From contig NZ_AMQY01000011.1 of assembly GCF_000334215.1 (NCBI RefSeq), positions 62,001-126,000 of the forward strand: 64,000 nucleotides of DNA, read 5' to 3'. A program made the translations under genes and the position numbers. The notes under the pieces were generated by a model. That model was not told where the DNA came from. It ran no database searches and saw only the letters and a list, made by a program, of their open reading frames with translations. This stretch comes from Vreelandella jeotgali Hwa (lineage in GTDB: Bacteria > Pseudomonadota > Gammaproteobacteria > Pseudomonadales > Halomonadaceae). Of this stretch, positions 8,158-61,112 are shown in pieces (position 1 is the first letter of the stretch; each line of letters starts with the position of its first letter).

Positions 8158-9180
<1,023 letters not shown>

Positions 9181-9230: not shown

Positions 9231-10007
9231 CTAGGACGCCTCGCGGGCCCGACGATTGCGCACGATACGGCCCAGCAGCAGCCCGATTTCGTAAAGCAGA
9301 TACATGGGCACCGCCAGCAGGCTTTGCGAGACAACGTCGGGCGGTGTCAGCAGCATGCCCACCACAAAGCAGCAGAGCACGATATAGGGGCGCTTGCGGC
9401 TCAGGCTTTCGACCGTGGTGGCGCCCGACAGCACCAGCAAAAAGGTGGCGATGGGAATCTCGAAGGCGACACCGAAGGCAAAAAACAGCTTCAACACGAA
9501 GTTGAGATACTGGTTGATGTCGGTCATCACCGTGATGTCGTCGGGCCCTGTCTGGGTGAAAAAGGCAAACAGCAGCGGAAAGACCGCATAGTAGGCAAAG
9601 GCGGCACCGGCGTAGAATAGCGCCACGCTGGAAACCAGCAGCGGCACGGCCAGGGTCTTTTCCCGGTCGTAGAGGCCGGGCGCGACAAAGGCCCAGGCCT
9701 GGTGCAGCACCACCGGCACGGCGATAAACACCGCCACCACCAGGGTCAGCTTGAACGGCGCGAGAAACGGCGAAGCCACTTCGGTGGCGATCATCTGCGA
9801 GCCGTCGGGCAGCAGCGCCATCAACGGCTCGGCGACAAAGGCATAGATGTCGTTGGCGAACGCATACAGCCCCAGAAAGATCACCAGAATGGCCACAACG
9901 GCGCGCATCAGCCGCGAACGCAGTTCAATCAGATGTTCGATCAGCGGGGCCTGGGAGCTTTCCTGCTGCGTATCCGTGTTGTGCTGTTTGGCGCTACTGC
10001 GGCTCAT
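9231..10007 (-). CDS. tatC: Twin-arginine translocase subunit TatC
   Basis: 258 residues with six predicted membrane helices. The start region reads PLIEHLIELRSRLMRAVVAI, a TatC hallmark in which the conserved Glu binds twin-arginine signal peptides. TatC with TatB forms the receptor for folded Tat substrates in the inner membrane. The start overlaps the 3' end of tatB by 14 bases, so translation is probably coupled. Confidence 0.97.
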   Translation of the reverse strand: MSRSSAKQHNTDTQQESSQAPLIEHLIELRSRLMRAVVAILVIFLGLYAFANDIYAFVAEPLMALLPDGSQMIATEVASPFLAPFKLTLVVAVFIAVPVVLHQAWAFVAPGLYDREKTLAVPLLVSSVALFYAGAAFAYYAVFPLLFAFFTQTGPDDITVMTDINQYLNFVLKLFFAFGVAFEIPIATFLLVLSGATTVESLSRKRPYIVLCCFVVGMLLTPPDVVSQSLLAVPMYLLYEIGLLLGRIVRNRRAREAS

Positions 10008-32993: not shown

Positions 32994-35900
32994 TCACACC
33001 TCATTCGTCTCTACGTTAGCCATCAAAGTTTTCAGATAGGACCGGCTATCGTCGGGAAACAGGATATTCCAGCTTTCCAGTATATCTCGATCCAGCGTTT
33101 GGCCTTCGTATTCCGGCCATTCGCTAAGCAGCTGCTGAGCCGGCGTTCGTGAGATCAGAAACGCATGCAGTTCGATATGTTGTCCTCCGGGCTGCTGGTT
33201 CAGCTGGCGCTCGGTTTCCTTGATGGTGCGATAAAACTGGACCTTGGGATCATGCAGCTTATGGTTACGCAGGCCCTTGGGGTCGACAAAAATCACTTTT
33301 TGTCTGCCGTCCTTGACCAGCCAAAGGATAAAGTCCGGGTAAAAACCGCCGTCGATAAACAGGCCGACCGCTCCCTGTCCGGTCTGGTTGCGCAGCAGAT
33401 ACACTTCATAGCCGGCAAAAAAGTCATCCCTGACGGCCTTATGAACATCCGAGGCGAACGCTGCCTCGCCGCTGTTAAGCGCTACGGGAGAGACCGGAAA
33501 ATCCGGCTTTTCGCCGGCCAGCAGCGGCTGATAGAGGTGAGGTTCGCACCAGATAAACTCCAGCCCGCCCAGGGTTTTGCCGTCCCACTTGTCGGGTGCT
33601 TGGTTTTCTAACGTCTTGCGCAAGGTTTTCAGCTGTTTGACCAGCGAATACTGGCGCTGGTGGTCAAGCGTGACGGTATAGCGGCCATCTGTCTTACCGT
33701 CATTCACGCCGGGCAGGTATTTCCTGTTTTCGGTAATGGGCCGGTATTCCAGCTTGTCGCTTTCCCACTGCTTGCGGCGCAGGTTGTAGAACATTTCGCA
33801 GTATTTGCGTAGCAGCGCAATGGCCATGTCGTGCCACAGCGCCATGTTTTCCAGCTGGCCCAATGACATGGCGGCATCCGGCGCATACAGCGTGTACCAG
33901 TCGGTATCGGCCAGCAGCTGCTCCACGACCTCCGGCGTCAGAGCCAGGTTGGCCCAGCGTTTATCGCGCTTGAACGCCAAAAGCTCGAAGTAGAGCCGAC
34001 GGATATCCAGCAGGGCGATATGTACAGGGCCCAGCGTTTGTTGCTGCGCATCGACGCGCCGCGTTTTGTCCTCGGTGGCAAATTGCCCTACGCGCGGGTA
34101 AAAATCTGCGCTGACGCGCGGCGGGTTATAAAAATAGCTTTTTTCATTGGCGCGCAAGTTGCCTGGTGCTCGCAACATCACCTGTTCGGCCAGCTCCTTG
34201 AAGGCCGTGCCGGCACCGCCAGTTGCCTTGTTGGCAACGGTAGGCTTGAGGCGGATAACATTCAGGTCCTGCGGTAGCTGCGCCATGGGCTCAAGCGGCA
34301 GGGTAAACTCTTCCAGGCCGTCGTTGACGGGAATTTCTTCGGCCGCCAGCTCGCGGCGGAAGGTATCCATGTAGTCGGCCTTGAGACCGAAAATATTCAA
34401 CGTTTCGAGCAGGCCAATGTGCTGTGGTCGTTCGATAGCCGCGTCTTTCAGCCTGGTCTGTAGCTCCGACGAGCGCTTGAGCGTGGTTTGCCAGCCTTTC
34501 AGGCGCACCCCACGGCCAAACAGCTGGATGATCTGGGCGCCTTCGTTTCTGCCCACGTTCAACAGCGTCATGTTGGAGACGCGCCAGCTGCTCCAGCCCT
34601 CGGTAAACTTCTTTGCCCCCAGCAGCAGGTTAACCGGCGAGCCCGGTTGATTGATGCCGTGAAACAGCGACTGGGCAAAGCGTGCATCCTGCACCAGCAG
34701 GCCTTTCTCTTCGCAGAGGTTTTTCAGCTTGCCGGCATCGCCTACGTTGATGACGCCGAAGGGCTCGCTGGTAGCGCCGGCGCGCAGGGCCAGCTCGCCA
34801 TCCACCCCGGTGATGTTTTCCATATACAGGCGCCCGCCGCCGGAGTGAAACACCCGTTCCAGCAGATCGTCGTAGAGGTCAGCGGCGGAGTCGCCCTGTT
34901 CTTTCAGGTAGTTAAAGCGGTCGTGCAGGGTATCGACACCGCCTCTGCCCACCAGGCCCTGGTTGATCAGGGTGCTGATGGCGTCCCGGGTTTTGGATGA
35001 GTCGCTGATAACGGTATCGATAAACTGCAGCACTTCTGCCATATCGTTGCCTTCGGCCTTGCTGAAGCCGCTGGTGACCTTGGAAGTGACAAAGACCCAG
35101 AGCGGTTTTTCCAGGTTGAAAGGTGCAAGCTGCGTTTTCTGGTCGGCGAACAGGCGCAGCTGCTGATAAAAACTCAGCAACGATGCGACCTGATAGAGAA
35201 AGTGACTCTGCTCGCTGGCGTCATCCAGATTCAGCACCTGCGACTGCTTGCCGTAGCCGTCGCGGTAAAAATGCCGATAGGAGTAGTCGAATAGAATCGC
35301 CTTGGTGTAGGTCTGGCGCAGGCTGGTGCCGAGGTCTTTATTCTTCGTATCGGAAATCGCGCTTTGGGCAAACGTCGCCGAATATTCAAAGGCAAAGCCG
35401 TGCTCGCACAGCGCGCGGCGGTAGCGATACCATACGCCACCCCCGCCGCTGGCGGTGCCGCGGTGGCCTTCATCCACCAGCAGCAGGTTGTTGCGGCCAA
35501 ACGACGCCACGGCCACGGTTTTGTCCTTTTCTTCCTCGCGTAGCTTGTTGATGTCGATGACCTGCACGTCGGCGTCAAACAGCTCGCCTGCCCTGGGCGA
35601 GAACGCCGTTGCGCTGATGCCGGAAGCCGCAAACTCGGTCAGGTGCTGTTGCGTCAGGCCCTCGTTGGGTGTGAGCAAAATGGTCTTGTTGATGTCGCCC
35701 TTTTTGCCGTAGCGCCCCAGGTAGTAGCGGAACTGCAAAATGTTGGCGTGCATGATCAGCGTCTTGCCCGAACCGGTGGCACTCCAGTAGGCCACGGTGT
35801 TCAGCTGCGGCCAGAGGTTGTCTTCGGCGTCCAGCAGCTCAAGTGGCCGATACTTTAGGCCCACTTCATCAATCCAGCGTGCGTTCCAGCGCTGTATCTG

Positions 35901-36344
35901 TGCGTTTAATGCGTCTACCAGCTGCTCGCGGCGGTTGAACACCCAGTCCAGATAAATTTCCGTGAACAAAAGCGTCAGGTACTGGAAGTACTTCCACTCT
36001 ATAGCCGGCAGCTGGTTGGCCTTGCGCCCATCGTTGATGCTGTCGGTCACGGTTTTGATGCGCCGGTCATATTCCAGCAGCTCGGCTTCTGAAAGGGTAA
36101 CGTCGTCGGCCAGGTTGGCGCAGAGGCTCGCCATCAGCGCATGCTGGCCTTCCGCGTCGCGCCCGGCGGTATCGCCGTGGAGCTGAAAGCGCTCGCAGAA
36201 GGCTTCCAGCGTGGGGATTTCCTTGCCGTCATGCTCCACGTTGCCGCTCAGGCTATCCAGCCCGAACAGCGAAAACAGCCACTGGTTCAGCACCAGGTGG
36301 TGGCTGAAAGAGAGCGTTTTTTTCTGCTTGCGTTTTGCCGCCAT
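32994..36344 (-). CDS. DEAD/DEAH helicase-nuclease, type III restriction subunit-like (Res)
   Basis: 1116 residues. An N-terminal extension of about 180 residues precedes an SF2 helicase core: Walker A SATGSGKT at 188-195, DEGH (variant DEAH) at 291-294, motif III YSATF, and motif VI QLFGRGVRLKG. A C-terminal PD-(D/E)xK nuclease is visible as YPDFILWL (Asp1004) and VIFVDPKG (Asp1021, Lys1023). This domain order is that of type III Res subunits, which translocate or slide and cut when they meet a second complex. It is the last gene of the operon, 65 bases after fic. Length is above the usual 900-1000. Role inferred from domains and the linked methyltransferase. Confidence 0.85.
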   Translation of the reverse strand: MAAKRKQKKTLSFSHHLVLNQWLFSLFGLDSLSGNVEHDGKEIPTLEAFCERFQLHGDTAGRDAEGQHALMASLCANLADDVTLSEAELLEYDRRIKTVTDSINDGRKANQLPAIEWKYFQYLTLLFTEIYLDWVFNRREQLVDALNAQIQRWNARWIDEVGLKYRPLELLDAEDNLWPQLNTVAYWSATGSGKTLIMHANILQFRYYLGRYGKKGDINKTILLTPNEGLTQQHLTEFAASGISATAFSPRAGELFDADVQVIDINKLREEEKDKTVAVASFGRNNLLLVDEGHRGTASGGGGVWYRYRRALCEHGFAFEYSATFAQSAISDTKNKDLGTSLRQTYTKAILFDYSYRHFYRDGYGKQSQVLNLDDASEQSHFLYQVASLLSFYQQLRLFADQKTQLAPFNLEKPLWVFVTSKVTSGFSKAEGNDMAEVLQFIDTVISDSSKTRDAISTLINQGLVGRGGVDTLHDRFNYLKEQGDSAADLYDDLLERVFHSGGGRLYMENITGVDGELALRAGATSEPFGVINVGDAGKLKNLCEEKGLLVQDARFAQSLFHGINQPGSPVNLLLGAKKFTEGWSSWRVSNMTLLNVGRNEGAQIIQLFGRGVRLKGWQTTLKRSSELQTRLKDAAIERPQHIGLLETLNIFGLKADYMDTFRRELAAEEIPVNDGLEEFTLPLEPMAQLPQDLNVIRLKPTVANKATGGAGTAFKELAEQVMLRAPGNLRANEKSYFYNPPRVSADFYPRVGQFATEDKTRRVDAQQQTLGPVHIALLDIRRLYFELLAFKRDKRWANLALTPEVVEQLLADTDWYTLYAPDAAMSLGQLENMALWHDMAIALLRKYCEMFYNLRRKQWESDKLEYRPITENRKYLPGVNDGKTDGRYTVTLDHQRQYSLVKQLKTLRKTLENQAPDKWDGKTLGGLEFIWCEPHLYQPLLAGEKPDFPVSPVALNSGEAAFASDVHKAVRDDFFAGYEVYLLRNQTGQGAVGLFIDGGFYPDFILWLVKDGRQKVIFVDPKGLRNHKLHDPKVQFYRTIKETERQLNQQPGGQHIELHAFLISRTPAQQLLSEWPEYEGQTLDRDILESWNILFPDDSRSYLKTLMANVETNEV

Positions 36345-36409
36345 GGTTGCCTTTTCTTGAATACGTTTGCGCTACGTGCATGGGGTCGGGGTTTACGGCG
36401 CTGGCACAC

Positions 36410-37546
36410 CTATTGGTTGATCGGAGGAATGAACCCGGTATTTTCCAGCACCTGAATCAGGCAGCGCATCAAATAGTTGTTGGTAAAGCAGACGTAGTAG
36501 GTTCGCCCATTGTCTTTCAGCGGCCGAATAAAGCCCGCCTCCTTCATCTTGGCGATCAGGTGCGTGCGCTGCCGTGAGTTGAGTTGCGACAGCACCTCAT
36601 TCAGGTCGGCCGCCTTGAATTCCTGTTTTTTCAGGCCCAGGCGAAGTACCCTGGCTTCGCTTTTGGTGAGGTAGCCGCGTTCAATGGCCAGCTCCAGAGT
36701 GGGCAGTAAAACCTCACCGTGCAGATAGTCAAAGTCCAGCAGCTTATCGATTTTGGTAATTTCATCCAGAATGCCCGTCAGTACATAGCTGCACCAGTCA
36801 AGCAGAGCGTCGTCACTGCCTTCATCGGCACGGGAGAGCTTGGCGTAATAGGCATCGCGGTCGTTGCAGAATACGGCTGTCGGGTTGAGGATCTTGCCGT
36901 CACGCACGTTGAACCCGTATTTAAGCAATAGGGCATAGGTTAACAGCCGCACGGTGCGGCCATTGCCGTTGCCAAACGGGTGAATCCACACAAAGCGGTG
37001 GTGAGCCAGCGCCGTCTTGAGCAGGTCATATTTACTGGTGTGATCCTGATTGATAAACGCCAGCCATTCATCCATCAGCGGCTGCACCTGCAGGTGTTCC
37101 GGCGGCTTATGTGCTGAGCCGGCAATGCCCACATCCCATGTGCGGTAGGCGCCGGGCGTTTTATCGCCTTCACCGTCGAGCCCGCTGACGACCAGCTGGT
37201 GTAGCTCGCGCACAAAATGATGGGTAATATCCGTCTCCGATGATACGGACTGCTCAATGAAATCCATTGCCGCTTCTACGTTGGCAATCTCGGAAAAGCG
37301 TTCATCCGAGCGTTCGCCGTGTTCAATTTTTTGTTCCACGTATTCCGAGATGGTAGTGCGGTTGCCCTCGATGCGAGCTGAGCCAACGCTTTCCATCAGG
37401 TGGAAGATGTTCTTGAGCTGGAAAAATATCCATGGGCGGGTGGTGCCCGCCAGCTGCGAGCGGCGCAGGTGGTTCAGCTCCATCAGCACATCGACCAGCT
37501 GTGAGTCGAAGCCAGGACTGACTAGGCGCAAATTAAATTCACCCAT
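36410..37546 (-). CDS. Fic-domain protein with N-terminal inhibitory motif and C-terminal winged helix
   Basis: 378 residues. The catalytic loop HPFGNGNGR (189-197) matches HPFx(D/N)GNGRxxR in full, so an active AMP (or other NMP) transferase is expected. An inhibitory motif of the (S/T)xxxE(G/N) type is seen as SARIEGN (S56-G61) before the Fic core, the arrangement of class II, self-inhibited Fic proteins. The C-terminal part (about 285-370, with SEARVLRLGLKKQEFKAADL and RQRTHLIAKMKEAGFI) looks like a winged-helix DNA-binding domain. It sits between mod and res in the defence operon. The target is unknown; it could modify a partner subunit or a host or phage protein. Confidence 0.88.
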   Translation of the reverse strand: MGEFNLRLVSPGFDSQLVDVLMELNHLRRSQLAGTTRPWIFFQLKNIFHLMESVGSARIEGNRTTISEYVEQKIEHGERSDERFSEIANVEAAMDFIEQSVSSETDITHHFVRELHQLVVSGLDGEGDKTPGAYRTWDVGIAGSAHKPPEHLQVQPLMDEWLAFINQDHTSKYDLLKTALAHHRFVWIHPFGNGNGRTVRLLTYALLLKYGFNVRDGKILNPTAVFCNDRDAYYAKLSRADEGSDDALLDWCSYVLTGILDEITKIDKLLDFDYLHGEVLLPTLELAIERGYLTKSEARVLRLGLKKQEFKAADLNEVLSQLNSRQRTHLIAKMKEAGFIRPLKDNGRTYYVCFTNNYLMRCLIQVLENTGFIPPINQ

Positions 37547-37627
37547 GGTTTTTCCTATCTACAATCAGTTGAATTAAGTCCATGAAATTCAAGGAATAAT
37601 TTTTTACATCGTGGTTTTTTATCTACA
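37546..37627 (-). promoter_or_regulatory. AT-rich putative operator/promoter of fic
   Basis: The 121-base gap between mod and fic is strikingly AT-rich. It holds a palindrome TTGAATT-N10-AATTCAA (37569-37592) and an imperfect direct repeat, TGGTTTTTCCTATCTACA (37546-37563) and TGGTTTTTTATCTACA (37612-37627), the first abutting the fic start codon. Such symmetry suggests a regulator binding site; the winged-helix end of Fic itself is a candidate binder. No direct proof. Confidence 0.5.
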
Positions 37628-37667
37628 TTTTTTGTTTTGAATAAGTACGTGACAAGCCAACCGACGT

Positions 37668-40600
37668 CTATTGCGTATCGGCAAACATCAGCCGCTGGAA
37701 GGCTTCTTCGACCAGCTCGATGCGGGCCTGATCCATCGGCTGGCCTTTGCGGTCGCGGGGGATGTGGATGTTGTGATCGCCGTTGACGTAGAGAATGTCG
37801 ATCTCATCGTCGGCGGATTCGGTCAGGCGGATCTTGAGCTTTTCCACCAGCACGGCGTCGAGTACGGCGTTGTCGCGGTTCAGGCCGTTGTCTTCGCCGG
37901 CGATGACGCTCGGCAGGTTGCGCCATACCACCAGCACCTGTTGGCCGTTGCGGTTGGTGCCGTACACGGTGCGGAACCACCAGCGGCCGTTCTCGGCGCG
38001 TTTGACCTGTGCCTGCAATCGGCCTTCCTTGCCATGAGTGATGTCGGCGTCAAAGTGAATCGGTGCGGCGATGTGCTCTACCGTCAGCCCCAGCAGATAG
38101 TTGAAGGTTTCCAGCAGATCGACGTTGACGGGCACGGTCTCGTCCCCGCCCGCAGAGCGTACCTTGAGCTCGTAGCGGGTAGGCTCCAGAAAGCGCTGGA
38201 TGTTGAGTAGCGACGGCGAGCCGCTGGTTTCCACGTCCAGCAGGTATTGCATCACGTAGGCCTGGCGAGCGGCATCGTTCTCCGCATTATCAAACAGCGA
38301 GGCCATGCCCGGCTTACGCTCAAGCTCCAGGTTGCCCAGGGTGTCTTCGTAGGACTCCAGCCGCAGGTACTTGAAGCAGTGCGATACGCCGGTATCCGGC
38401 GCGGTGGGCGCGCCGTCTTTCCAGTCCTGTGAGTACACCACCTTCTGCATGCGAGGCTTCAGCACCGTATCGAAGTGTTTGCCCATTTCGACGAGGATAT
38501 ATTTGCGCTGGCCGTCGTCCTCGCGATTGAGGTTAATGACGGCGTGGCCGGTAGTGCCTGAACCCGCGAAATAGTCGAGAGTCAGTGAACCGTTTCCCAC
38601 ACGTATGACACGCTCCACCAAACCTGAGGGCTTAGGGTTAGTCATTGATGTACCTGGAATCAGAGCTCGTAAGTCTCTAATACCATCTTGATTATGACCA
38701 ACTTCGTTGTGACTCCAAAGAGTACGTGGCACTAGGTCACTTACATCACTTAAAAATCTTTTGTAGGCGGGGGTTTTATTAGTTCCGCTCTTTCCCCACC
38801 AGACACGGTTATCGGCTTCATTTTTAGCGTGTGCATCACTAGTATACCGCCAAACTGCATTTTCTTTTGGCCATATTTCTTCACCAGTGTTAGGATTGGT
38901 TATCGCGTAGTATAGGTTGGGGCGCTCATTAGCAGTTTTGTTACATTTGTAGTTGTCTGCACGCCAGCTTCCCCTTTTATCATTGTCAGGGTTGGTATAT
39001 GCGCTATTATTACTTGCAGAACGTGGTATTCTTCCAGGTATCCAGCTTTGTTTACTTGCCGCAAAATTGACGACAAAGTCATGATCATCACTGAGCCAAG
39101 TGGCATCATTGGCAGGGGCGTATTTTTTTTGCCATATTATATTAGCAACAAAGTTTTTATCCCCCATGCTGATACTTAGTATTTTTCGAAGAAAATCTTG
39201 CTCATCATCGTCAATGCTTGCAAATAATGCGCCTTGATGTATATCAAAAAGTGGATTGCAGGCTAGTGAGCGGTCAAGTATGAAGGAACCCCAGCTTGAG
39301 TGCTGAAGAGTATCTTTATAAAGAAAACCATCGCTTCCTGTATTATACGGCGGATCAATATAAACGCACTTCACCTGTTCCCGGTAACGCTCCTGAAGTA
39401 GATTCAGTGCCTGAAAGTTCTCGGAGTGAATCAGCAGGCCGTCGCACTGGTCGTCCAGGTTGTCGAGGGTATCCAGAAGCTGCGCCTTGAAGGCGGCGTT
39501 GAAGTGCGCGGTATCGAGCATCAAATAGCGGTATTCCGGCCGCTCGATTAACTCTACGGCGTCGGTGCCTGTGAGCGCCTGTTCCAGCGCGTCAAGATCA
39601 AGCTGATACAGCTTTTTCCAGTCCTGTTTTTGTGCCGAGTTGGCAAATACCTGTGCCAACAGTTCCGGTGAGTCTTCCAGCCGATCGAGGGTGATACAGT
39701 AGTTGGTTTCGGTAACAAACTTTTTTTTCAGCCAGAGTTTCTTCTGGAAATTTTCCAGCTGGGAAAGAAAGGCGATAATCTTTTCGCCCAGAGTGCGCAC
39801 CACGTCCAGCTTGGAAAGCAGCGGGGCAAGCCTTGCCGGGTCGTTTTTGGCCGCGGAAAGGTCTTCCCAGTTCATCAGCTCGTGCTTGAGGTAGAAATCC
39901 AGCTCGCGGGTTAAAAAGCCGCCCAGGTCCTTGTGGATAAAGTAGTCAAAGGTATTTTTCTTGCTGTAGTTATTCAGCTGGCCGCGGAAGGTGCTGTACT
40001 CCGCCAGCTCGCCGTCGGCCTTGCGATAGCGTTTGGCCAGGGCACTGCGCCATTCGGGGGGCAGAGTGCTGGTTTTACCCAGCAGGCGCTCTTCGGCAAT
40101 GGCGCGCAGGTGATCCTGAGTGGGCGCTTTTTTGGCGGCAGCGGTAGTGGCATTTTGTTTCACCGGCGCTGTCCAGTCGTCCATGGTCGCCGGGCGGAAA
40201 TGAAAGCGGCAGTGCAGCTCGTTAAAGCGGTGGCCTGCGGTGTTGGGTTCGCCCTGTTCCACGGTAAACGGCGCGTCTGCGTCCAACACGAAGACGCGCT
40301 TGCTGTCGTCGGCTTCCTTGTTGTTGTCCTGGGCGCCGGGGGCGGCATCCACCAGCTTGAAGTGAACGCGCAGCGGATCGTCAGCGGGGCCGGCGTCGAG
40401 GTTCAGGCGGAAGCTGTAGTCGCGCAGCGTGTCGCTTGACTTGATGTAGTACTGGTCCTTGTTGGCCCAGTGCAGCTTGACCTCTTCGCCATCGTAAGGG
40501 ATGGCGTAGGTGCCGTCGCCATAGCGGCGCTGGGAGATAAAGTCGCCTTCGCTGTAGTAGCGGCTGAAAAACGTTACCAGGGCATCGTAGACTTCGCCTT

Positions 40601-40943
40601 CTTCCCGGGCGACGTTAAAGCCGGTGGCGTATTGGGCTTCCAGCTCTTGCACTTTAGGAGAGTCTTCCGGGGCTATACCGGCCGCTACCGCACCCTGGCG
40701 TGCCTGCTCCAGGTCTTTGTCCAGCTGGGCCTTGTCGTTGCCCGCAAAGTCCTTGAAGGCATCCTGGGCGATTTGCGGCAGATCCTGCTCGATAAAGCGG
40801 TCAATATCCGCCTTGCGCGCGTGCATAATACGGTAGAGGCCGAAGTCCAGCTCCGGCTGGTCCAGCTGGAACATCTCGCGTAGCAGCGCGGCAAATTTCA
40901 CGCGCCGCGCATTGGCCCGGTGGTGTTGGGTGTCTTGACTCAT
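37668..40943 (-). CDS. Large site-specific N6-adenine DNA methyltransferase (Mod-like, beta class)
   Basis: 1091 residues. An N-terminal region of about 500 residues, unlike short type III Mod proteins, precedes the catalytic domain. Motif IV is CVYIDPPYNTGS (DPPY at 530-533) and the SAM-binding motif I is DYFAGSGTTGH (about 790-800), so IV precedes I: the beta order of type III Mod enzymes. Between them lies the target recognition region (about 535-785), encoded by DNA clearly AT-richer than the rest (38.6-39.35 kb). A C-terminal region of about 290 residues follows. Both catalytic motifs are intact. It is the second gene of the operon, 168 bases after the SNF2 gene. Confidence 0.88.
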   Translation of the reverse strand: MSQDTQHHRANARRVKFAALLREMFQLDQPELDFGLYRIMHARKADIDRFIEQDLPQIAQDAFKDFAGNDKAQLDKDLEQARQGAVAAGIAPEDSPKVQELEAQYATGFNVAREEGEVYDALVTFFSRYYSEGDFISQRRYGDGTYAIPYDGEEVKLHWANKDQYYIKSSDTLRDYSFRLNLDAGPADDPLRVHFKLVDAAPGAQDNNKEADDSKRVFVLDADAPFTVEQGEPNTAGHRFNELHCRFHFRPATMDDWTAPVKQNATTAAAKKAPTQDHLRAIAEERLLGKTSTLPPEWRSALAKRYRKADGELAEYSTFRGQLNNYSKKNTFDYFIHKDLGGFLTRELDFYLKHELMNWEDLSAAKNDPARLAPLLSKLDVVRTLGEKIIAFLSQLENFQKKLWLKKKFVTETNYCITLDRLEDSPELLAQVFANSAQKQDWKKLYQLDLDALEQALTGTDAVELIERPEYRYLMLDTAHFNAAFKAQLLDTLDNLDDQCDGLLIHSENFQALNLLQERYREQVKCVYIDPPYNTGSDGFLYKDTLQHSSWGSFILDRSLACNPLFDIHQGALFASIDDDEQDFLRKILSISMGDKNFVANIIWQKKYAPANDATWLSDDHDFVVNFAASKQSWIPGRIPRSASNNSAYTNPDNDKRGSWRADNYKCNKTANERPNLYYAITNPNTGEEIWPKENAVWRYTSDAHAKNEADNRVWWGKSGTNKTPAYKRFLSDVSDLVPRTLWSHNEVGHNQDGIRDLRALIPGTSMTNPKPSGLVERVIRVGNGSLTLDYFAGSGTTGHAVINLNREDDGQRKYILVEMGKHFDTVLKPRMQKVVYSQDWKDGAPTAPDTGVSHCFKYLRLESYEDTLGNLELERKPGMASLFDNAENDAARQAYVMQYLLDVETSGSPSLLNIQRFLEPTRYELKVRSAGGDETVPVNVDLLETFNYLLGLTVEHIAAPIHFDADITHGKEGRLQAQVKRAENGRWWFRTVYGTNRNGQQVLVVWRNLPSVIAGEDNGLNRDNAVLDAVLVEKLKIRLTESADDEIDILYVNGDHNIHIPRDRKGQPMDQARIELVEEAFQRLMFADTQ

Positions 40944-41042
40944 GGGTGACCTGACAGAGGAATAAATGTGACGGTGAGGCGCATTGCTGGATAATCTGGC
41001 CCGCCATCAAGGCAGCAGAAATCTGGCCTCAGCGATGCTGAA

Positions 41043-41107
41043 CCATGAAAAACGCTTATTGGCCATGAAAAACGCTTACGATACCAATTTTTTGTGAAAA
41101 ACGCTTA
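41043..41107. repeat. Three direct repeats TGAAAAACGCTTA between SNF2 and mod
   Basis: Exact 13-base copies lie at 41046-41058, 41066-41078 and 41095-41107; the first two are identical over 16 bases (CCATGAAAAACGCTTA). They fall in the 168-base gap between the SNF2 stop and the mod start. Spacing between starts is 20 and 29 bases, about two and three helical turns. This suggests an iterated protein-binding site controlling mod or the downstream genes. Confidence 0.8.
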
Positions 41108-41111
41108 TTTT

Positions 41112-44000
41112 TCATGCCAGCCGCCAGCGAATCCGAAACAGGTGGTGGGTGCTGCTTTTGCGGTGCATCTGTTGTTCCAGCGCGCTGATCATGGCGTCGC
41201 GGCGCTCTTCGATGCGGTCTTCCAAGTCAAACAGCGCCTGGCGCTGGCGTCGCTGCTGGCGCGTTAGTTGCTTGAGCGTTTCTTCTGCCTGTTTCTGCTC
41301 TTCGATACTTTCCGCCTGGCGCGACGTGCGCTTGGCCTGCTTGATGCTGCTTTTGGTGTCTTCAAGTGTCTGTTCGGCGCTGTGCATCTGGTCGTCGGCC
41401 CAGGCGTCCAACCTGGTGCGCTCGCGCTGGAAGTAGTGGTGGTTTTCATCCAGAACGGTGCTGAGCCGGGCATTGAGCTGGCGCCGGGCGGTGTCCTTGA
41501 GGAAAGTCGTGTCTTCTTCGGCTTCCTGAGTGGTATCAGCGTATTGCACGTCGGCGGATAGCTGAAACAGCTGGCGGCAGTGCTCATCATCGAGCAATTG
41601 GCCGCTGTGGGTGATGGCGGTGAAGACCAGGTGTTCTTCGCGCTGAAAGCTGTCCAGCTCCAGCAGGTTGAGTTCGAGCCAGCCGCATTTTTCCGGCAGC
41701 TGATCGAGGGCGCTCATTTTGGCGGCGTGGCCGGCCAGATCGAATGTTAGCGTCGCCACCGGGGTTTCCAGCCGCCGGGCGGTATCCAGCACGTATTCGC
41801 CCAGCGGGTGGTTCAAGCGATACAGGTGGGCCGTCCTGTCCGGCTGATGCCCCTTGCGGATCAGCTCGTAGCGGCCGGCGGGCACATCGGGCAGCGGACT
41901 GCGGTGCAGGTCGAATGCGAGGCTGTCGTCGTCAAAGCGGGCGCAGCCGGCCAGCTGGTGCCGGGTCAGCTGCCAGAACAGGCGGCTGATGGTGTCGAGC
42001 TGCTGTACAGCCTTGTCGTGCTGTATCTTCAGCAGATCGTGAATGCCGGCGTCGAAGTGCTCGAACAGTTTGTCGCGGGTGTCGAGCATGCGCTCGTTGA
42101 TGCTGTCTTCCAGCTCGCCTTGCAGCTGGCGGAACGCCTGTTCGATTTCTTCCCGGGTGCGGCAGGTGTCGTAAATGGCGGCGATGCGCTTTTCCATGTC
42201 CACGCCGGACTCGATACGGCCGAGCACTTCGTCCGAGGCGCCAAAAAGTCCGTCAAATAGCTCAAACTTGTCGGTCAATAGCTCCAGTACACGGCGGTCA
42301 GCCGCGTTTTTTTCGTTGAGAAAGTTGATGACGACGACGTCGAATGCCTGACCGTAACGATGGCAGCGGCCGATGCGCTGTTCGACGCGCTGCGGATTCC
42401 AGGGCAGATCATAATTGATCACCAGGCTGCAAAACTGAAGGTTCACCCCTTCGGCGGCGGCTTCGGTGGCGACAAGAATATCGGCTTCGTCCCGGAAGTG
42501 GTCGATAATCGCGGTGCGCTTGTCGATGGCAGCGCTGCCTGTTGCCCGGTCGGTGCTTTCATAACGAGCTCGCCAGCGCTGGTAGATGGCATTGCTGCTG
42601 GCTGAGCTATTGGAGCCGTTGAACGTGGCCACGCGGCCGAGATAGCCGTGGCGTTCCAGGTATTGATAGAGGTATTCCTGGGTGCGGCGGCTTTCGGTGA
42701 AGATCACGGCTTTTTGTTCCGCGCCCATGCTCGCCATGTGGGAAAGGCCCTGTTCCAGAGCGCTCAGCAAGGCAGCGGATTTGGCATCTTCGGGAATACG
42801 CCGGGCCAGTTCGAGGTATTGGTTCAGCTCGGCGATTTCCCCCTGTAGCCTGTCGCGGTCGAGAGTCGGCCTCTCCTGTTGGGTAGCCGGGGCGGCTGTG
42901 GCTGCATAGTCGCTGTTGTCCTCGGCGGCTTCGTCAAGAATGTCTTCTTCAAGCTCTTCGTGGTCGATCAGCGTTTCCAGCCAGTTGTCATCTTCTGCCT
43001 GCTGATCCTCGAGTTTGACCAGCCTTGCCACGATGCTTTCAAGCGTGTTGATGATGGCCGGCGTGCTGGAGGCCAGTAGTTTGCGTGCGACCAGCGTGAC
43101 CAGGTGGCGCTGCTGGTGTGGAACGCCATAGGCGTCATTCCGCTGTAGATAGGCGGAAACAAGATGATACAGGCGCAGCTCGTCGTCTGACGGCTGGAAC
43201 GGTACGGTAAGCGCTCGACGTTTTGTATAGCGAATATACTCGTTGACGTCACGCCGCAGGGTGCGTTTGGCAAATTCCTGCAATCGGTCGCGCAGGCCGT
43301 CCATATCGCCACCGTCGCGCATGTATTGCTGACGGAAGCTTTGCCTGTCGCCGAACAGGTGCTCGTCGATCACAGTCGCCAGGCCGTACAGCTCCAGCAG
43401 CGAGTTTTGTAGCGGCGTGGCTGTCAGCAGTAATTTTTGGCACTTGCCAAAAGCCTGTTTGATCGCTTGCCCCGTTCGATGGCTGTCGCGGTGGGCATTG
43501 CGCAGTTTGTGCGCTTCATCAAATACGGCCAGGTCCCAGGGAGTGAGCCGCAGTGACTCCTGCATACGCGTAGCAAACGTATAGGACACCACGCTGATAA
43601 CGGGTTCGTTGAACGGGTCTATCACGCCGGCCTTGCGCTTCGCCTGCCAGGTTTTGTTATCCAATACCTGAGTGGGCAAGTGAAATTTATCGGATAGCTC
43701 GTTGGCCCACTGTTTGCGCAGGGCGGCCGGGCACACCACAATAATTCGCCGTCGGCGTTCGGCCCAGTATTGAGCCACGACCAGCGCTGCTTCAATCGTT
43801 TTGCCCAGCCCGACTTCATCGGCCAGCACGACGCCCTTTATCAGCGGGTTTTGCAAGGCAAACAGAGCCGCATCGATCTGGTGCGGATTCAGATCAACCG
43901 ACGCATCGAACAGCGACTGTCCGATACGATCCATGTCGCCTCCGCGCCGCCGGCGCGTTAGCTCGTAGGCAAAATATCTGGCGTGGTAAGGGCTAATCAT
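41112..44000 (-). CDS. SNF2-family helicase of the defence operon
   Basis: 962 residues. SNF2/RapA-type ATPase: LADEVGLGKTIEA (Walker A at 64-68), DEAH at 161-164 in AVFDEAHKLRNAH, motif III LLTATPLQNSL, and a second RecA lobe with ATEAAAEGVNLQFC and the SNF2 motif VI QRIGRCHRYGQ. The last 150 residues are Gln/Glu/Arg-rich with heptads, so a coiled coil is likely. It resembles the SNF2 helicases found beside methyltransferases in defence loci (for example DrmD of class 1 DISARM), but the DISARM genes drmA, drmB and drmC are absent. It is the first gene of the four-gene minus-strand unit. Confidence 0.87.
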   Translation of the reverse strand: MISPYHARYFAYELTRRRRGGDMDRIGQSLFDASVDLNPHQIDAALFALQNPLIKGVVLADEVGLGKTIEAALVVAQYWAERRRRIIVVCPAALRKQWANELSDKFHLPTQVLDNKTWQAKRKAGVIDPFNEPVISVVSYTFATRMQESLRLTPWDLAVFDEAHKLRNAHRDSHRTGQAIKQAFGKCQKLLLTATPLQNSLLELYGLATVIDEHLFGDRQSFRQQYMRDGGDMDGLRDRLQEFAKRTLRRDVNEYIRYTKRRALTVPFQPSDDELRLYHLVSAYLQRNDAYGVPHQQRHLVTLVARKLLASSTPAIINTLESIVARLVKLEDQQAEDDNWLETLIDHEELEEDILDEAAEDNSDYAATAAPATQQERPTLDRDRLQGEIAELNQYLELARRIPEDAKSAALLSALEQGLSHMASMGAEQKAVIFTESRRTQEYLYQYLERHGYLGRVATFNGSNSSASSNAIYQRWRARYESTDRATGSAAIDKRTAIIDHFRDEADILVATEAAAEGVNLQFCSLVINYDLPWNPQRVEQRIGRCHRYGQAFDVVVINFLNEKNAADRRVLELLTDKFELFDGLFGASDEVLGRIESGVDMEKRIAAIYDTCRTREEIEQAFRQLQGELEDSINERMLDTRDKLFEHFDAGIHDLLKIQHDKAVQQLDTISRLFWQLTRHQLAGCARFDDDSLAFDLHRSPLPDVPAGRYELIRKGHQPDRTAHLYRLNHPLGEYVLDTARRLETPVATLTFDLAGHAAKMSALDQLPEKCGWLELNLLELDSFQREEHLVFTAITHSGQLLDDEHCRQLFQLSADVQYADTTQEAEEDTTFLKDTARRQLNARLSTVLDENHHYFQRERTRLDAWADDQMHSAEQTLEDTKSSIKQAKRTSRQAESIEEQKQAEETLKQLTRQQRRQRQALFDLEDRIEERRDAMISALEQQMHRKSSTHHLFRIRWRLA

Positions 44001-57564: not shown

Positions 57565-57640
57565 GGGTCGTTAGCTCAGTTGGCAGAGCAGTTGGCTTTT
57601 AACCAATTGGTCGCAGGTTCGAATCCTGCACGACCCACCA
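57565..57640 (+). tRNA. tRNA-Lys (anticodon TTT), copy 1
   Basis: 76 bases with CCA encoded. Acceptor GGGTCGT/ACGACCC, D-arm GCTC...GAGC, anticodon stem GTTGG/CCAAT with one wobble, anticodon TTT at 57598-57600, T-arm GCAGG-TTCGAAT-CCTGC. All stems pair. Confidence 0.97.
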
Positions 57641-57656
57641 TTTCGGACCCTGTTAC

Positions 57657-57732
57657 GGGTCGTTAGCTCAGTTGGCAGAGCAGTTGGCTTTTAACCAATT
57701 GGTCGCAGGTTCGAATCCTGCACGACCCACCA
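57657..57732 (+). tRNA. tRNA-Lys (anticodon TTT), copy 2
   Basis: Identical over all 76 bases to the copy 16 bases upstream. The two probably form one transcript ending at the terminator that follows. Confidence 0.97.
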
Positions 57733-57884: not shown

Positions 57885-60800
57885 ATGTCGCTGATCGCCG
57901 AGCAAGTGCTGCAAAATCATGTACAGCCGCCTACCGCCATTCCCGACGATCACCTGGCGACGATTACCGCCTGGAAAAACAGCATCCTCAGCGGTGATAT
58001 CGAGCGGCAAAACGAGGTGGCGCTGCACGCGCCGTTCACCGAGCGCATTCTAGGCACGCTGCTGGGTTACCAAAGCTTTGGCCAGGGGGATAGCTATACC
58101 GTCGCGCGGGAATATGGCATTGCCCGCGGCGCCGTCGATATCGCGCTGGGGCAGTTTTACGGCGAACGCGAGCGCAATCAGGTCAAGGCGGTGTTTGAAG
58201 TGAAGGGCGCCAAAACCCGCGACCTCGATGCTATCATGCCCGGGCGGCATAAAAGCCCCGTACAGCAGGCGTGGGAATACGCTCGCGACGTAAAAGGCGT
58301 GGACTGGGTGCTGGTGACCAACTATCGTGAAATTCGCCTGTATCACGTCGGTGAAACGTCGCTGGTATATGACACCTTTGATCTCACCACCCTTGATGAC
58401 CCCTGGGAATACGCGCGTTTTCAGCTGTGCCTGGGCGCTGAAAACCTGCTCAATGACCGCCCGCTGGAGCTTTTGCGCCAAACCCAGCAGGCCGATAAGG
58501 ACATCACCGCGCGGCTCTATCAGGACTACAAGCACCTGCGCGAAACCCTGATTGTCACCCTGATGGAAGCCAACCCCGAATGGGCACCGGCCAGGCTGGT
58601 GCCGGCGGCGCAAAAGCTGCTCGACCGCATTCTGTTTCTGGCCTTTGCCGAAGACACCGGACTGATTCCCGATAACTCCATTGCTCAGGCCTACGAGCAC
58701 GCCGACCCCTACAATCCGCGCCCGGTGTACGACAACTTCAAGGGGCTGTTTCGCGCGGTCGACAAGGGCAACAAGCCGTTGAATATCCCCGCCTATAATG
58801 GCGGCCTCTTTGCCGAGGATGCCGAGCTGGATAGCTTGAGCGTCAGCGATGAGCTGTGCGAAGCGTTTAAAGAGCTCGCTGAATACGACTTTGCCTCGGA
58901 AGTCTCGGTCACGGTGCTGGGACGTATTTTCGAGCAGTCGATTACCGACCTGGAAGCACTGGCCGAGCAGCTGGAGCGCGGCGAAGCCATCGTCCCGCAG
59001 GAAAGCGCTCGCTCGGTCTCCGGGCGGCGCAAGCTTCAGGGCGTGGTGTATACCCCGGATAATATTACCGCCTTTATGGTCGAGCAGACTCTGGGATGCT
59101 ATTTACAGCGGCAATTTTCGCGCTTGCTCGGCGACTACGGCCAGCTGAAAAACGACGGCAGCATCCAGTGGAAGCGTGGCAAGCAGAACGAGCTGAAGTT
59201 CTGGTACGCCTGGCAGGAAGCCTTGCAGCATATCCGCGTGGTCGACCCCGCATGCGGCTCGGGCGCGTTTTTGCTTGCCGCCTTTGATTTTCTCCACGCG
59301 GAATATCAGCGCATCAACGACAAGCTGGCCGAGCTCACCGGCCAGCCCGGCGTGCTGGATCTCAACAAGGAAATTCTCAACCACAACCTTTATGGCGTGG
59401 ATATCAACGCCGAATCCATCGAGATCACCAAGCTCTCGCTGTGGTTGAAAACCGCCGAACGCGGCAAGCCCCTTACCAGCCTTAACGCCTGCCTGCGCGA
59501 CGGCAACAGCCTGGGGATTACCCGGTCGGTAGCGGGCAGCGCGTTTTGCTGGCATGCGGCTTTTCCCGAGATTTTTGCCGACGGCGGCTTTGACGTGGTG
59601 CTGGGCAACCCGCCGTATGTGCGTCAGGAGCGCTTCTCCGAGATGAAACCCTGGCTGGAAGCCCACTACCGGGTGTATCACGGCGTGGCCGACCTGTACG
59701 CCTACTTTTTTGAGCTGGGGCTTAACCTGCTCAAACCCGGTGGCATGCTGGGCTACATCAGCTCCTCGACGTTTTTCAAAACCAATGCCGGCATGCCGCT
59801 GCGTCGCCACCTGGCCGAGTGCACACGCCTGCACAGCGTGGTGGACTTCGGCGATTTACAGGTGTTTGAAGGCGTGACCACCTACCCGGCCATTCTGGTG
59901 ATGGAAAACGCCGCGCCGACGGAAGATCACCGCCTGGCGATGCTCAACCTGACCGACGACCTGCCGGAAAACCTCGGCCAGCGGTTTAGCCAGGATCACG
60001 GCACCATGCCGCAAAGCCGGCTGGGCAGTGAAGGCTGGCAGCTGGAAGACGAAACCCTGGCCGCGCTGCGCCACAAGCTCACCCACGCCGCCGACGGCAC
60101 GCCGTATCCCAGCCTCAAAGCCGTATATGGCTCGCCGCTATACGGGATTAAAACCGGCTGTAACAAGGCATTCGTGATTGATCAGGCGACCCGGGATGCG
60201 CTGGTGGCCGAAGACCCCGCCTCGGCCGAGGTGCTCAAGCCGTTTCTGGAAGGCAAGGATCTGAAAAGATGGCATGCGCAGAATCAGGGGTTATGGCTGA
60301 TATTTGCCCGGCGCGGCATTGATCTTGATGCGTACCCGGCAGTGAAGCGGCATCTGGAACAGTACCGTGAGCAGCTTGAGCCCAAGCCACGCGACTGGCC
60401 GCGTGGCAAGAAATGGCCGGGAAGAAAGGCCGGTAGCTACCGCTGGTATGAAATTCAGGACACTGTAGCGTATTACGAAAAGTTTGCCTTGCCCAAGGTT
60501 TTCTACCCGGATATCACCAATAGCCCCAAGTTTTATCTGGATACCGGCGGAGCCTTTGCTGCCAATACGGCCTACTTTTATCCTGATGGTAACTACTATT
60601 TAGTGGGCTTGCTGAATTCACAGGCTGTGTGGTTCTTTCTCACGGGGATCGCCGATTCGGTGCGCGGTGGTTTTTACCGGATGTTTTCACAAAATGTGAA
60701 CCGCATTCCTTTGCCACCAGCGTCCGACGAGCAGCAGGCCACCATCGCCGAGCTGGCCGAGCAGTGCCAGCAAACCGCCGAACAGCGCCAGCAGGTGATT

Positions 60801-61112
60801 GAGCGCTTTGCCCGCCGCCTGTGCGATGACCTCTGCCCCGACGGCCGCGAGCCCAGGCTCAACACCAAAAGCCGCCAGTGGTGGCAGCTGGACTTCAAGA
60901 CCCTGCAGGCTGAGGTAAAAAAGAGCTTCAAGCTCAAGGCCAGAGATACGCTGATCGCCGTGGCCGAGCGCGACGACTGGGAAGACTATTTTACCGACCG
61001 GCAGGCCAGGGTGAGCACACTGGATGAGACGCTTGCCGCGACGGAAAACCGGTTGAACCAGGCGGTGAATGCCCTGTTTGATTTGACCCGGGAAGAGCAG
61101 CACTTGCTGTAA
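57885..61112 (+). CDS. Type IIG restriction-modification enzyme (Eco57I-like methylase fused to nuclease)
   Basis: 1075 residues in one chain. An N-terminal PD-(D/E)xK nuclease is suggested by GAVDIALGQ (Asp85) and AVFEVKGAK (Glu105, Lys107). A helical connector follows to about 380. The gamma-class N6-adenine methyltransferase has motif I VDPACGSGAFLLA (454-461) and motif IV LGNPPYVRQE (NPPY at 575-578). The C-terminal third (about 700-1075) would be the TaqI-like target recognition domain; it includes SVRGGFYRMFSQNVNRIPLPP. Nuclease, methylase and specificity in one protein is the type IIG layout. No separate methylase or specificity gene is nearby. All catalytic motifs look intact. Confidence 0.85.
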   Translation: MSLIAEQVLQNHVQPPTAIPDDHLATITAWKNSILSGDIERQNEVALHAPFTERILGTLLGYQSFGQGDSYTVAREYGIARGAVDIALGQFYGERERNQVKAVFEVKGAKTRDLDAIMPGRHKSPVQQAWEYARDVKGVDWVLVTNYREIRLYHVGETSLVYDTFDLTTLDDPWEYARFQLCLGAENLLNDRPLELLRQTQQADKDITARLYQDYKHLRETLIVTLMEANPEWAPARLVPAAQKLLDRILFLAFAEDTGLIPDNSIAQAYEHADPYNPRPVYDNFKGLFRAVDKGNKPLNIPAYNGGLFAEDAELDSLSVSDELCEAFKELAEYDFASEVSVTVLGRIFEQSITDLEALAEQLERGEAIVPQESARSVSGRRKLQGVVYTPDNITAFMVEQTLGCYLQRQFSRLLGDYGQLKNDGSIQWKRGKQNELKFWYAWQEALQHIRVVDPACGSGAFLLAAFDFLHAEYQRINDKLAELTGQPGVLDLNKEILNHNLYGVDINAESIEITKLSLWLKTAERGKPLTSLNACLRDGNSLGITRSVAGSAFCWHAAFPEIFADGGFDVVLGNPPYVRQERFSEMKPWLEAHYRVYHGVADLYAYFFELGLNLLKPGGMLGYISSSTFFKTNAGMPLRRHLAECTRLHSVVDFGDLQVFEGVTTYPAILVMENAAPTEDHRLAMLNLTDDLPENLGQRFSQDHGTMPQSRLGSEGWQLEDETLAALRHKLTHAADGTPYPSLKAVYGSPLYGIKTGCNKAFVIDQATRDALVAEDPASAEVLKPFLEGKDLKRWHAQNQGLWLIFARRGIDLDAYPAVKRHLEQYREQLEPKPRDWPRGKKWPGRKAGSYRWYEIQDTVAYYEKFALPKVFYPDITNSPKFYLDTGGAFAANTAYFYPDGNYYLVGLLNSQAVWFFLTGIADSVRGGFYRMFSQNVNRIPLPPASDEQQATIAELAEQCQQTAEQRQQVIERFARRLCDDLCPDGREPRLNTKSRQWWQLDFKTLQAEVKKSFKLKARDTLIAVAERDDWEDYFTDRQARVSTLDETLAATENRLNQAVNALFDLTREEQHLL

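Follow-up and report, generated by a model that had tools for sequence, protein, structure and literature searches.

Type III restriction-modification (RM) systems of the EcoP15I kind are built on a Mod-Res pair. DISARM typically has the genes DrmA, DrmB, and DrmC (PMC9142583), and Hma (helicase, methylase, ATPase) includes HmaB, a predicted m5C methyltransferase, and HmaC, an ATPase (PMC8565338). RM operons in which SNF2 or type III helicases and methylases stand with replaceable partners, AIPR among them, and in which such partners are exchanged have also been described (Iyer 2008, PMC2292703); as far as the accessible parts of that paper go, its SNF2 operons have HNH or EcoRII-like nucleases, and a set of SNF2 plus type III Mod plus Res does not appear there. 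The embedding of defense genes within other systems is itself a published idea (Payne 2024), and further papers bear on the comparison (PMC10853773, PMC11090510, PMC5608340). CccR of Yersinia pseudotuberculosis, solved as 7XUX, is a Fic protein with a class II inhibitory helix, a FIC motif, and a C-terminal DNA-binding domain, through which it represses its own promoter; it AMPylates FtsZ, leading to growth arrest of Escherichia coli, and is secreted as an effector against other bacteria (PMC9755527).

The locus described here belongs to a known kind, restriction-modification with embedded defense modules, and is new in its variant. We consider it probable that it is an acquired, recurrent SNF2-Mod-Res RM operon with two positions for exchangeable modules and a CccR-like Fic passenger with a leader of its own. 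Our literature search, with most subscription journals outside its reach, returned no recognizable description of a set of SNF2, type III Mod, and Res, and the Payne 2024 embedding preprint may already contain this chassis or its passengers; we would say only tentatively that the SNF2-Mod-Res chassis is unnamed so far.

Four intact genes with a long type III-like Mod-Res pair

The window, that is, the whole stretch of 64,000 nucleotides from Vreelandella jeotgali Hwa that was analyzed, carries four intact open reading frames in the order SNF2-Mod-Fic-Res on the minus strand, separated by intergenic gaps of 168, 121, and 65 bp (Table 1). The operon is flanked by purL and lplA, which are convergent toward each other, and 108 bp lie between SNF2 and lplA. 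Pfam assigned SNF2-rel_dom and Helicase_C to the SNF2 protein, N6_N4_Mtase to Mod, Fic to Fic, and ResIII to Res, while the PADLOC scores were 643 bits for SNF2 (against DrmD), 630 for Mod (MTase_III), 168 for Fic (SoFic), and 589 for Res (REase_III). An earlier note on this DNA had read the genes as one co-directional unit with intact catalytic motifs, and this was confirmed: open reading frame coordinates, Pfam, and PADLOC agree, and the motifs are present in all four proteins, namely, DEVGLGKT and DEAH in SNF2, DPPY and FAGSG in Mod, the FIC motif HPFGNGNGRTVR together with the inhibitory SARIEG in Fic, and ATGSGKT, DEGH, and PD...DPK in Res. The genes may be read as a single transcript; a simple scan revealed no minus-strand terminator-like site in the Mod/Fic or the Fic/Res gap.

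Table 1 Features of the operon, in positions of the window
Feature	Position	Strand	Basis
SNF2 helicase, DrmD-like, 962 aa	41112..44000	-	ORF, Pfam, PADLOC, NCBIfam, motifs
Three-copy TAAGCGTTTTTCA array between SNF2 and Mod	41046..41107	-	sequence search
Mod, long type III-like DNA methyltransferase, 1091 aa	37668..40943	-	ORF, Pfam, PADLOC, PDB match, motifs
Presumed target recognition domain of Mod, the variable stretch between DPPY and FAGSG	38589..39323 (approximate)	-	pairwise alignment, methylase class
AT-rich fic leader, GC 31%, putative autoregulatory region	37547..37667	-	sequence, repeat count
Weak promoter-like site in fic leader, touching one TGTAGATA copy	37655-37627	-	simple scan
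Two TGTAGATA copies in fic leader, 64 bp apart	37620-37627, 37556-37563	-	repeat count
Fic, CccR-like class II AMPylator, passenger module, 378 aa	36410..37546	-	ORF, Pfam, PADLOC, PDB match, motifs
Inhibitory helix motif SARIEGN of Fic	37361..37381	-	alignment with CccR
FIC motif HPFGNGNGRTVR	36947..36982	-	alignment with CccR
Region at the C terminus of Fic that aligns with the HTH (DNA-binding) domain of CccR	36413..36721 (approximate)	-	boundary transferred from the CccR paper
Res, long type III-like helicase-nuclease, 1116 aa	32994..36344	-	ORF, Pfam, PADLOC, motifs
PD-(D/E)xK-like nuclease motif of Res (PD...DPK)	33273..33341	-	motif alignment

Judged by the Mod-Res pair, the mode of action should resemble that of a type III system. 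In a PDB sequence search, Mod matched the solved type III Mods 6K0W, 4ZCF, and 7DSU; it is of the N6/N4 class and has DPPY before FxGxG with a variable stretch in between, and Res has helicase as well as PD-(D/E)xK-like motifs. The differences lie in the length of Mod and Res, which are nearly twice as long or clearly longer (the three solved Mods have 567 to 644 aa), in the joined SNF2 gene, in the embedded passengers, and in Res, which had no PDB sequence match at an E value of 0.01. The structures predicted from 8-row alignments were of low confidence, with a mean pLDDT of 59.7 for the long Mod and 56.6 for the long Res; a fold search with the Mod model ranked the Mod 6K0W first (E value of 1e-8), the N-terminal extension being unreliable in this model.

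As in DISARM, a methyltransferase stands in the operon, and the SNF2 protein is nearest to DrmD models. Its NCBIfam scores stayed below both DrmD cutoffs, however (654 versus 950 bits and 303 versus 610 bits), and the DrmA model of PADLOC matched the SNF2 gene alone, at 152 bits, lower than DrmD. With Hma the operon shares a helicase and a methylase accompanied by other, embedded defense genes, and HEC-01 modules known from Hma also sit in operons of the present type; it differs in its N6/N4 type III Mod and its Res, and the HmaA model reached only 187 bits. None of the four proteins matched DrmB, DrmC, HmaB, HmaC, or the BREX proteins PglZ and BrxC in PADLOC (for SNF2, among its best 25 of 49 families), and PglZ and BrxC were not among the matches listed for ten further proteins of the window. 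Given the DrmD scores below the cutoffs and the lack of these matches, membership in DISARM, BREX, or Hma was rejected. The absence of marker genes claimed earlier thus holds for DISARM and BREX, and also for Hma, by PADLOC and for DrmD by the NCBIfam cutoffs.

The window also contains a second restriction system, a type IIG restriction enzyme-methyltransferase (57885-61112, plus strand) with Eco57I and MmeI domains and a PADLOC score of 463 bits (REase_MTase_IIG). Two tandem tRNA-Lys genes (57565-57732) immediately precede its gene, and nadA follows it.

SNF2, Mod, and Res are a recurrent unit

We determined the distribution of the genes in 293 genomes of the order, 369 genomes of the class (the own genome being counted in both sets), and plasmid records. 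SNF2 was found, at an E value of 1e-80, in 23 of the 293 order genomes and 22 of the 369 class genomes, own included. The loci mapped numbered 51: 20 from the order (the own locus and 19 others), 18 from the class, and 13 from plasmids. Left unmapped were six hits on contig fragments, G154, G246, and G033 from the order and G368, G469, and G453 from the class. The 13 plasmids were chosen for variety from 40 listed of 50 matched records; the other 27 listed comprise 26 from Klebsiella, Raoultella, Citrobacter, or Salmonella (about 50% identity) and one from Roseomonas.

Mod and Res stood beside SNF2 at 19 of the 20 order loci, at 11 of the 13 class loci in which the contig runs on (L078, L079, L082, L088, and L091, with contig ends inside the operon, are outside this count), and at all 13 chosen plasmid loci, Mod of L098 being counted by the record annotation alone. 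The exceptions were L044, with SNF2 but neither Mod nor Res, L086, with Res and no recognized Mod, and the fragmentary L095. L046, L093, and L099 have a split or broken Mod and L039 a doubled one, and the gene order is Mod-Res-SNF2 in L101. The long Res (E value of 1e-60) turned out to be present in eight of the 293 order genomes, seven of which have SNF2 (Fisher P = 5e-8); the eighth, G096, has Mod and Res with SNF2 absent. The short contig of G154 carries pieces of Mod and Res. SNF2, Mod, and Res are thus a recurrent, co-conserved unit, whose hosts include Alpha-, Beta-, and Gammaproteobacteria and, by way of plasmids, a Hymenobacter, a Deinococcus, and a planctomycete.

Among the 39 loci with three full-length genes, the distances for Mod and those for Res were correlated with an r of 0.95, those for SNF2 and Mod with 0.45, and those for SNF2 and Res with 0.52; for the 12 long loci the values were 0.92, 0.69, and 0.75, respectively (Mantel tests, uncorrected for the relatedness of the hosts). 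The operons fall into a long class, to which the window operon belongs (Mod of about 1030 to 1210 aa and Res of about 1080 to 1130 aa), and a short class (about 490 to 700 and 885 to 996 aa), so that Mod and Res of the window, at 1091 and 1116 aa, are longer than usual, as had been noted earlier. The helicase and nuclease motifs are kept in 12 long Res proteins, with K replaced by H in L038, L080, and L081. The stretch of Mod between DPPY and FAGSG, which in this methylase class we take to be the target recognition domain, was variable in several close pairs: identity per 60-column block was 12 to 48% there and mostly above 70% at the ends in the pairs L041/L042, L036/L037, and L035/L108. For the more distant pair of the window and L032 the middle stretch went down to 17 to 37%, for L083/L094 it dropped mildly, to 35 to 40%, and for L034/L096 the block identities showed no drop there.

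Small helix-turn-helix genes are annotated just upstream of SNF2 in 7 of the 13 plasmid loci (L096, L099, L100, L102, L103, L105, and L108), and the 108-bp gap between SNF2 and lplA in the window holds no such gene.

Two positions carry exchangeable passengers

Across the mapped loci, the two positions SNF2/Mod and Mod/Res carry exchangeable modules. By hand count, at least one same-strand passenger of at least 100 aa was present in 16 of 19 order, 10 of 11 class, and 7 of 13 plasmid complete loci; L033, L035, L038, L093, and six plasmid loci have none. An automatic list, which takes in incomplete loci and one IS256 transposase (L100), held 75 passenger genes in 38 similarity groups. Pfam was run on 31 passengers, the window Fic among them, and recognized OLD-type ATPase with DUF4276, RhuM, AIPR, Abi_2, GmrSD, AAA ATPase with subtilase, Schlafen AlbA, YhcG, zeta toxin, SIR2 with HerA, GHKL ATPase, KilA-N, DUF6880, a RecD-like helicase, and an HTH-M78 peptidase. 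Three of the 31 had no Pfam match (L080 6132-7091, L080 9814-10668, and L085 5034-6113) and are candidates for undescribed defense genes. Among the ten passengers scanned with PADLOC, strong matches were to HEC-01A and HEC-01B (L031), PDC-S05 (L034), IetS (L083), NsnA (L080), PDC-S24 (the Fic of L032), and SoFic (the Fic of L082); those of the L036 AIPR and the L043 Schlafen gene were weak, and the zeta toxin had no useful match. Fic-domain passengers occur in 3 of the 51 mapped loci (the window, L032, and L082); they come from unlike families, and the inhibitory motif is present in just two of them.

Loci with close cores can differ in their passengers (identities are given for SNF2/Mod/Res, best aligned piece). 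L034 and L096 (74/76/79%) have RhuM and OLD with DUF4276, respectively, at the same position, and L031 and L032 (73/62/72%), with only 10 to 12 bp between Mod and Res, have OLD with DUF4276 and Fic. Passengers also differ between L036 and L037 (83/58/82%) and between L083 and L094 (79/72/83%). Exchange is not always seen with a close core, since L041 and L042 (89/58/94%) share the same passenger group.

The window Fic is a passenger related to CccR

The nearest solved relative of Fic was CccR (418 bits over residues 3 to 375, the DNA-binding domain included). The inhibitory and FIC motifs are the same in the two proteins, and the window Fic likewise has the class II motif, the FIC motif, and a C-terminal DNA-binding region in one chain. 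It scored below the cutoff of the SoFic equivalog NF046030 of NCBIfam (46.5 versus 550 bits). The start of the host FtsZ differs, and by eye a serine is aligned with the modified threonine of the CccR target. Unlike CccR, which is secreted and has an inverted-repeat operator, the window Fic has direct repeats and sits inside an RM operon.

The Fic family (E value of 1e-60) was found in five of the 293 order genomes and four of the 369 class genomes, own included. None of the seven other genomes (four of the order and three of the class) has SNF2 at an E value of 1e-80, the own genome being the sole overlap. A scan of species genomes gave six Fic relatives at 54 to 73% identity. SNF2, Mod, and Res, long or short, were absent from the available stretch of all ten neighborhoods of Fic relatives (L051 to L056 and four order genomes; G110, one of the latter, evidently repeats L051, its contig being of equal length). 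Five of these neighborhoods extend about 9 to 10 kb on both sides and L119 extends 9.2 and 3.7 kb; L053, L054, and L055 reach 10 kb to one side and less than 1 kb to the other, and L052, with 1.7 and 0.4 kb, is too little to tell. DNA similarity between the window and the Fic relatives is confined to the fic coding frame. Like an embedded module, Fic is enclosed by genes of a different system and turns up on its own elsewhere, and it is a passenger independent of the SNF2-Mod-Res core.

Direct repeats in the fic leader

A repeat pattern, TGTA[AG][AT]T, was read by eye from ten leaders of the Fic family and then counted on 13 (200 bp each). It occurred 34 times on the coding strand and never on the other, against 3.4 copies expected from dinucleotide shuffles (standard deviation 1.8, largest value 10). 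Ten of the 13 leaders have at least one copy and nine at least two; L118, L119, and L120 have none. In three unseen leaders (L133, L134, and L135) there were 3, 5, and 2 copies, numbers reached by 16, 0, and 16 of 500 shuffles, respectively. By hand count, 14 of the 24 spacings between neighboring copies are 22 to 23 bp and six are 61 to 65 bp. Some repeats extend into AGATAAT (L117 and L133), in a direct arrangement, unlike the footprinted boxes of CccR, which are AGATAATCAT in an inverted repeat with a 26-bp spacer (PMC9755527). We predict that the TGTAGAT repeats are likely the operator of Fic. Promoter-like sites as strong as that of the fic leader are equally frequent in shuffled DNA. With fic and its leader placed ahead of res, repression of fic could extend to res.

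The probable insertion site

At an E value of 1e-60, lplA was found in 2 of 31 genomes of the same genus, the window's own and G664. In G664, 1.2 kb separate lplA from purL; this interval holds an IS1595-type transposase gene and no operon, and the flanks align to those of the window at 87 to 89%. Since this site lacks the operon and both its flanks are alignable, the operon looks acquired, as judged from one comparison genome. Base composition is no mark of foreign origin: the GC content of the operon genes is 54.5 to 59.4% versus 63.4% for the window, and the neighboring lplA itself has 58.7%.

Exact copies of TAAGCGTTTTTCA followed by a pyrimidine occur in the own genome only as the three of the SNF2/Mod gap. 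In G664 two copies (L121, at about 8391-8404 and 9455-9468) stand between lplA and purL, one to each side of the IS1595-type element, by which an array of similar spacing appears to have been split. In three other genomes of the genus, single copies stand inside or at the start of open frames.

Discussion

The earlier note took the four genes for one defense system with Fic as its switch or effector and thought similar gene sets might exist elsewhere. They do so for SNF2-Mod-Res, at order, class, and plasmid loci, and not with this Fic family, for which co-occurrence with the other three was found in none of the sampled genomes outside the own one. Of that proposal, the co-conservation of SNF2, Mod, and Res and a plausible effector role of Fic, by homology with CccR, have stood, and Fic as a fixed component has not; with the own genome as the sole overlap between the Fic and the SNF2 genomes, the reading of the four genes as a single conserved system was rejected. 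An obligate four-component system, with Fic as switch or executor of the SNF2-Mod-Res machinery, would agree with the co-directional genes, the short gaps, and the Fic-domain proteins of two other loci of the same type (L032 and L082). With that single overlap, passenger-free loci (L033, L035, L038, L093, and six on plasmids), and three passenger Fics from unlike families, two of them with the inhibitory motif, we regard it as very unlikely. Least probable, almost to the point of dismissal, is a locus derived from DISARM, BREX, or Hma as a degenerate form or a variant: the nearness of SNF2 to DrmD (643 bits in PADLOC and 654 in NCBIfam) is set against scores under both cutoffs, the lack of DrmB, DrmC, PglZ, BrxC, HmaB, and HmaC among the matches listed for the four proteins, and the recurrence of the three-gene set in the maps without such genes.

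The remaining alternatives concern the part played by Fic. It could be mainly a controller, apart from AMPylation, whose repression of its own leader, situated between mod and res, would delay or tune Res, much as C proteins do in type II systems. The leader with two TGTAGATA copies and a promoter-like site touching one of them, the lack of a terminator-like site between fic and res on the coding strand, the 10 to 12 bp between Mod and Res in L031 and L032, and the autorepression of CccR through its C-terminal domain (PMC9755527) all point this way; the promoter-like site, however, is weak and of a kind as frequent in shuffled DNA, and an upstream promoter could drive res in any case, which leaves this an unlikely reading. 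We give a similarly low chance to Fic being a hitchhiker without a defense role, either an addiction module or an interbacterial effector like CccR. The family does stand apart from this operon elsewhere, and CccR is a secreted effector against other bacteria (PMC9755527), but the same positions hold families that match defense models, and Fic proteins recur at the docking positions. Also rather doubtful is a wider reading in which Fic would be effector and controller at once, repressing its own leader so that methylation comes before restriction, with derepression firing Res and the growth-arresting AMPylator together, all on an unnamed, widespread chassis with standing docking positions for second-line modules.

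We therefore return to an acquired RM operon with a Fic passenger. Mod would recognize its sequence through the variable stretch and methylate adenines of the host DNA; unmethylated incoming DNA would be cut by Mod-Res, with the SNF2 motor presumably moving along or remodeling the target. The inhibitory helix would keep Fic inactive, and autorepression at the TGTAGAT repeats would keep its amount low; once released, Fic would, by analogy with CccR, AMPylate a host protein and stop growth, as a second line if restriction fails. The operon thus probably protects against phages, and Fic, if it behaves as CccR does, probably controls itself and halts cell growth. Against this explanation we counted the exceptions L044, L086, L095, and G096, the moderate correlations of SNF2, Res without a PDB match, Mod of the pairs L034/L096 and L083/L094, the repeat-free leaders L118 to L120, the inverted repeat of CccR, the host FtsZ, and the GC content of lplA.

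As the core is kept while target recognition and partners vary, the docking positions are a natural catalogue of candidate antiphage genes. The operon is a tractable case of the pairing of fallible restriction with a growth-arrest module, and it could be used to ask directly whether a Fic enzyme may double as the regulator of a restriction gene.
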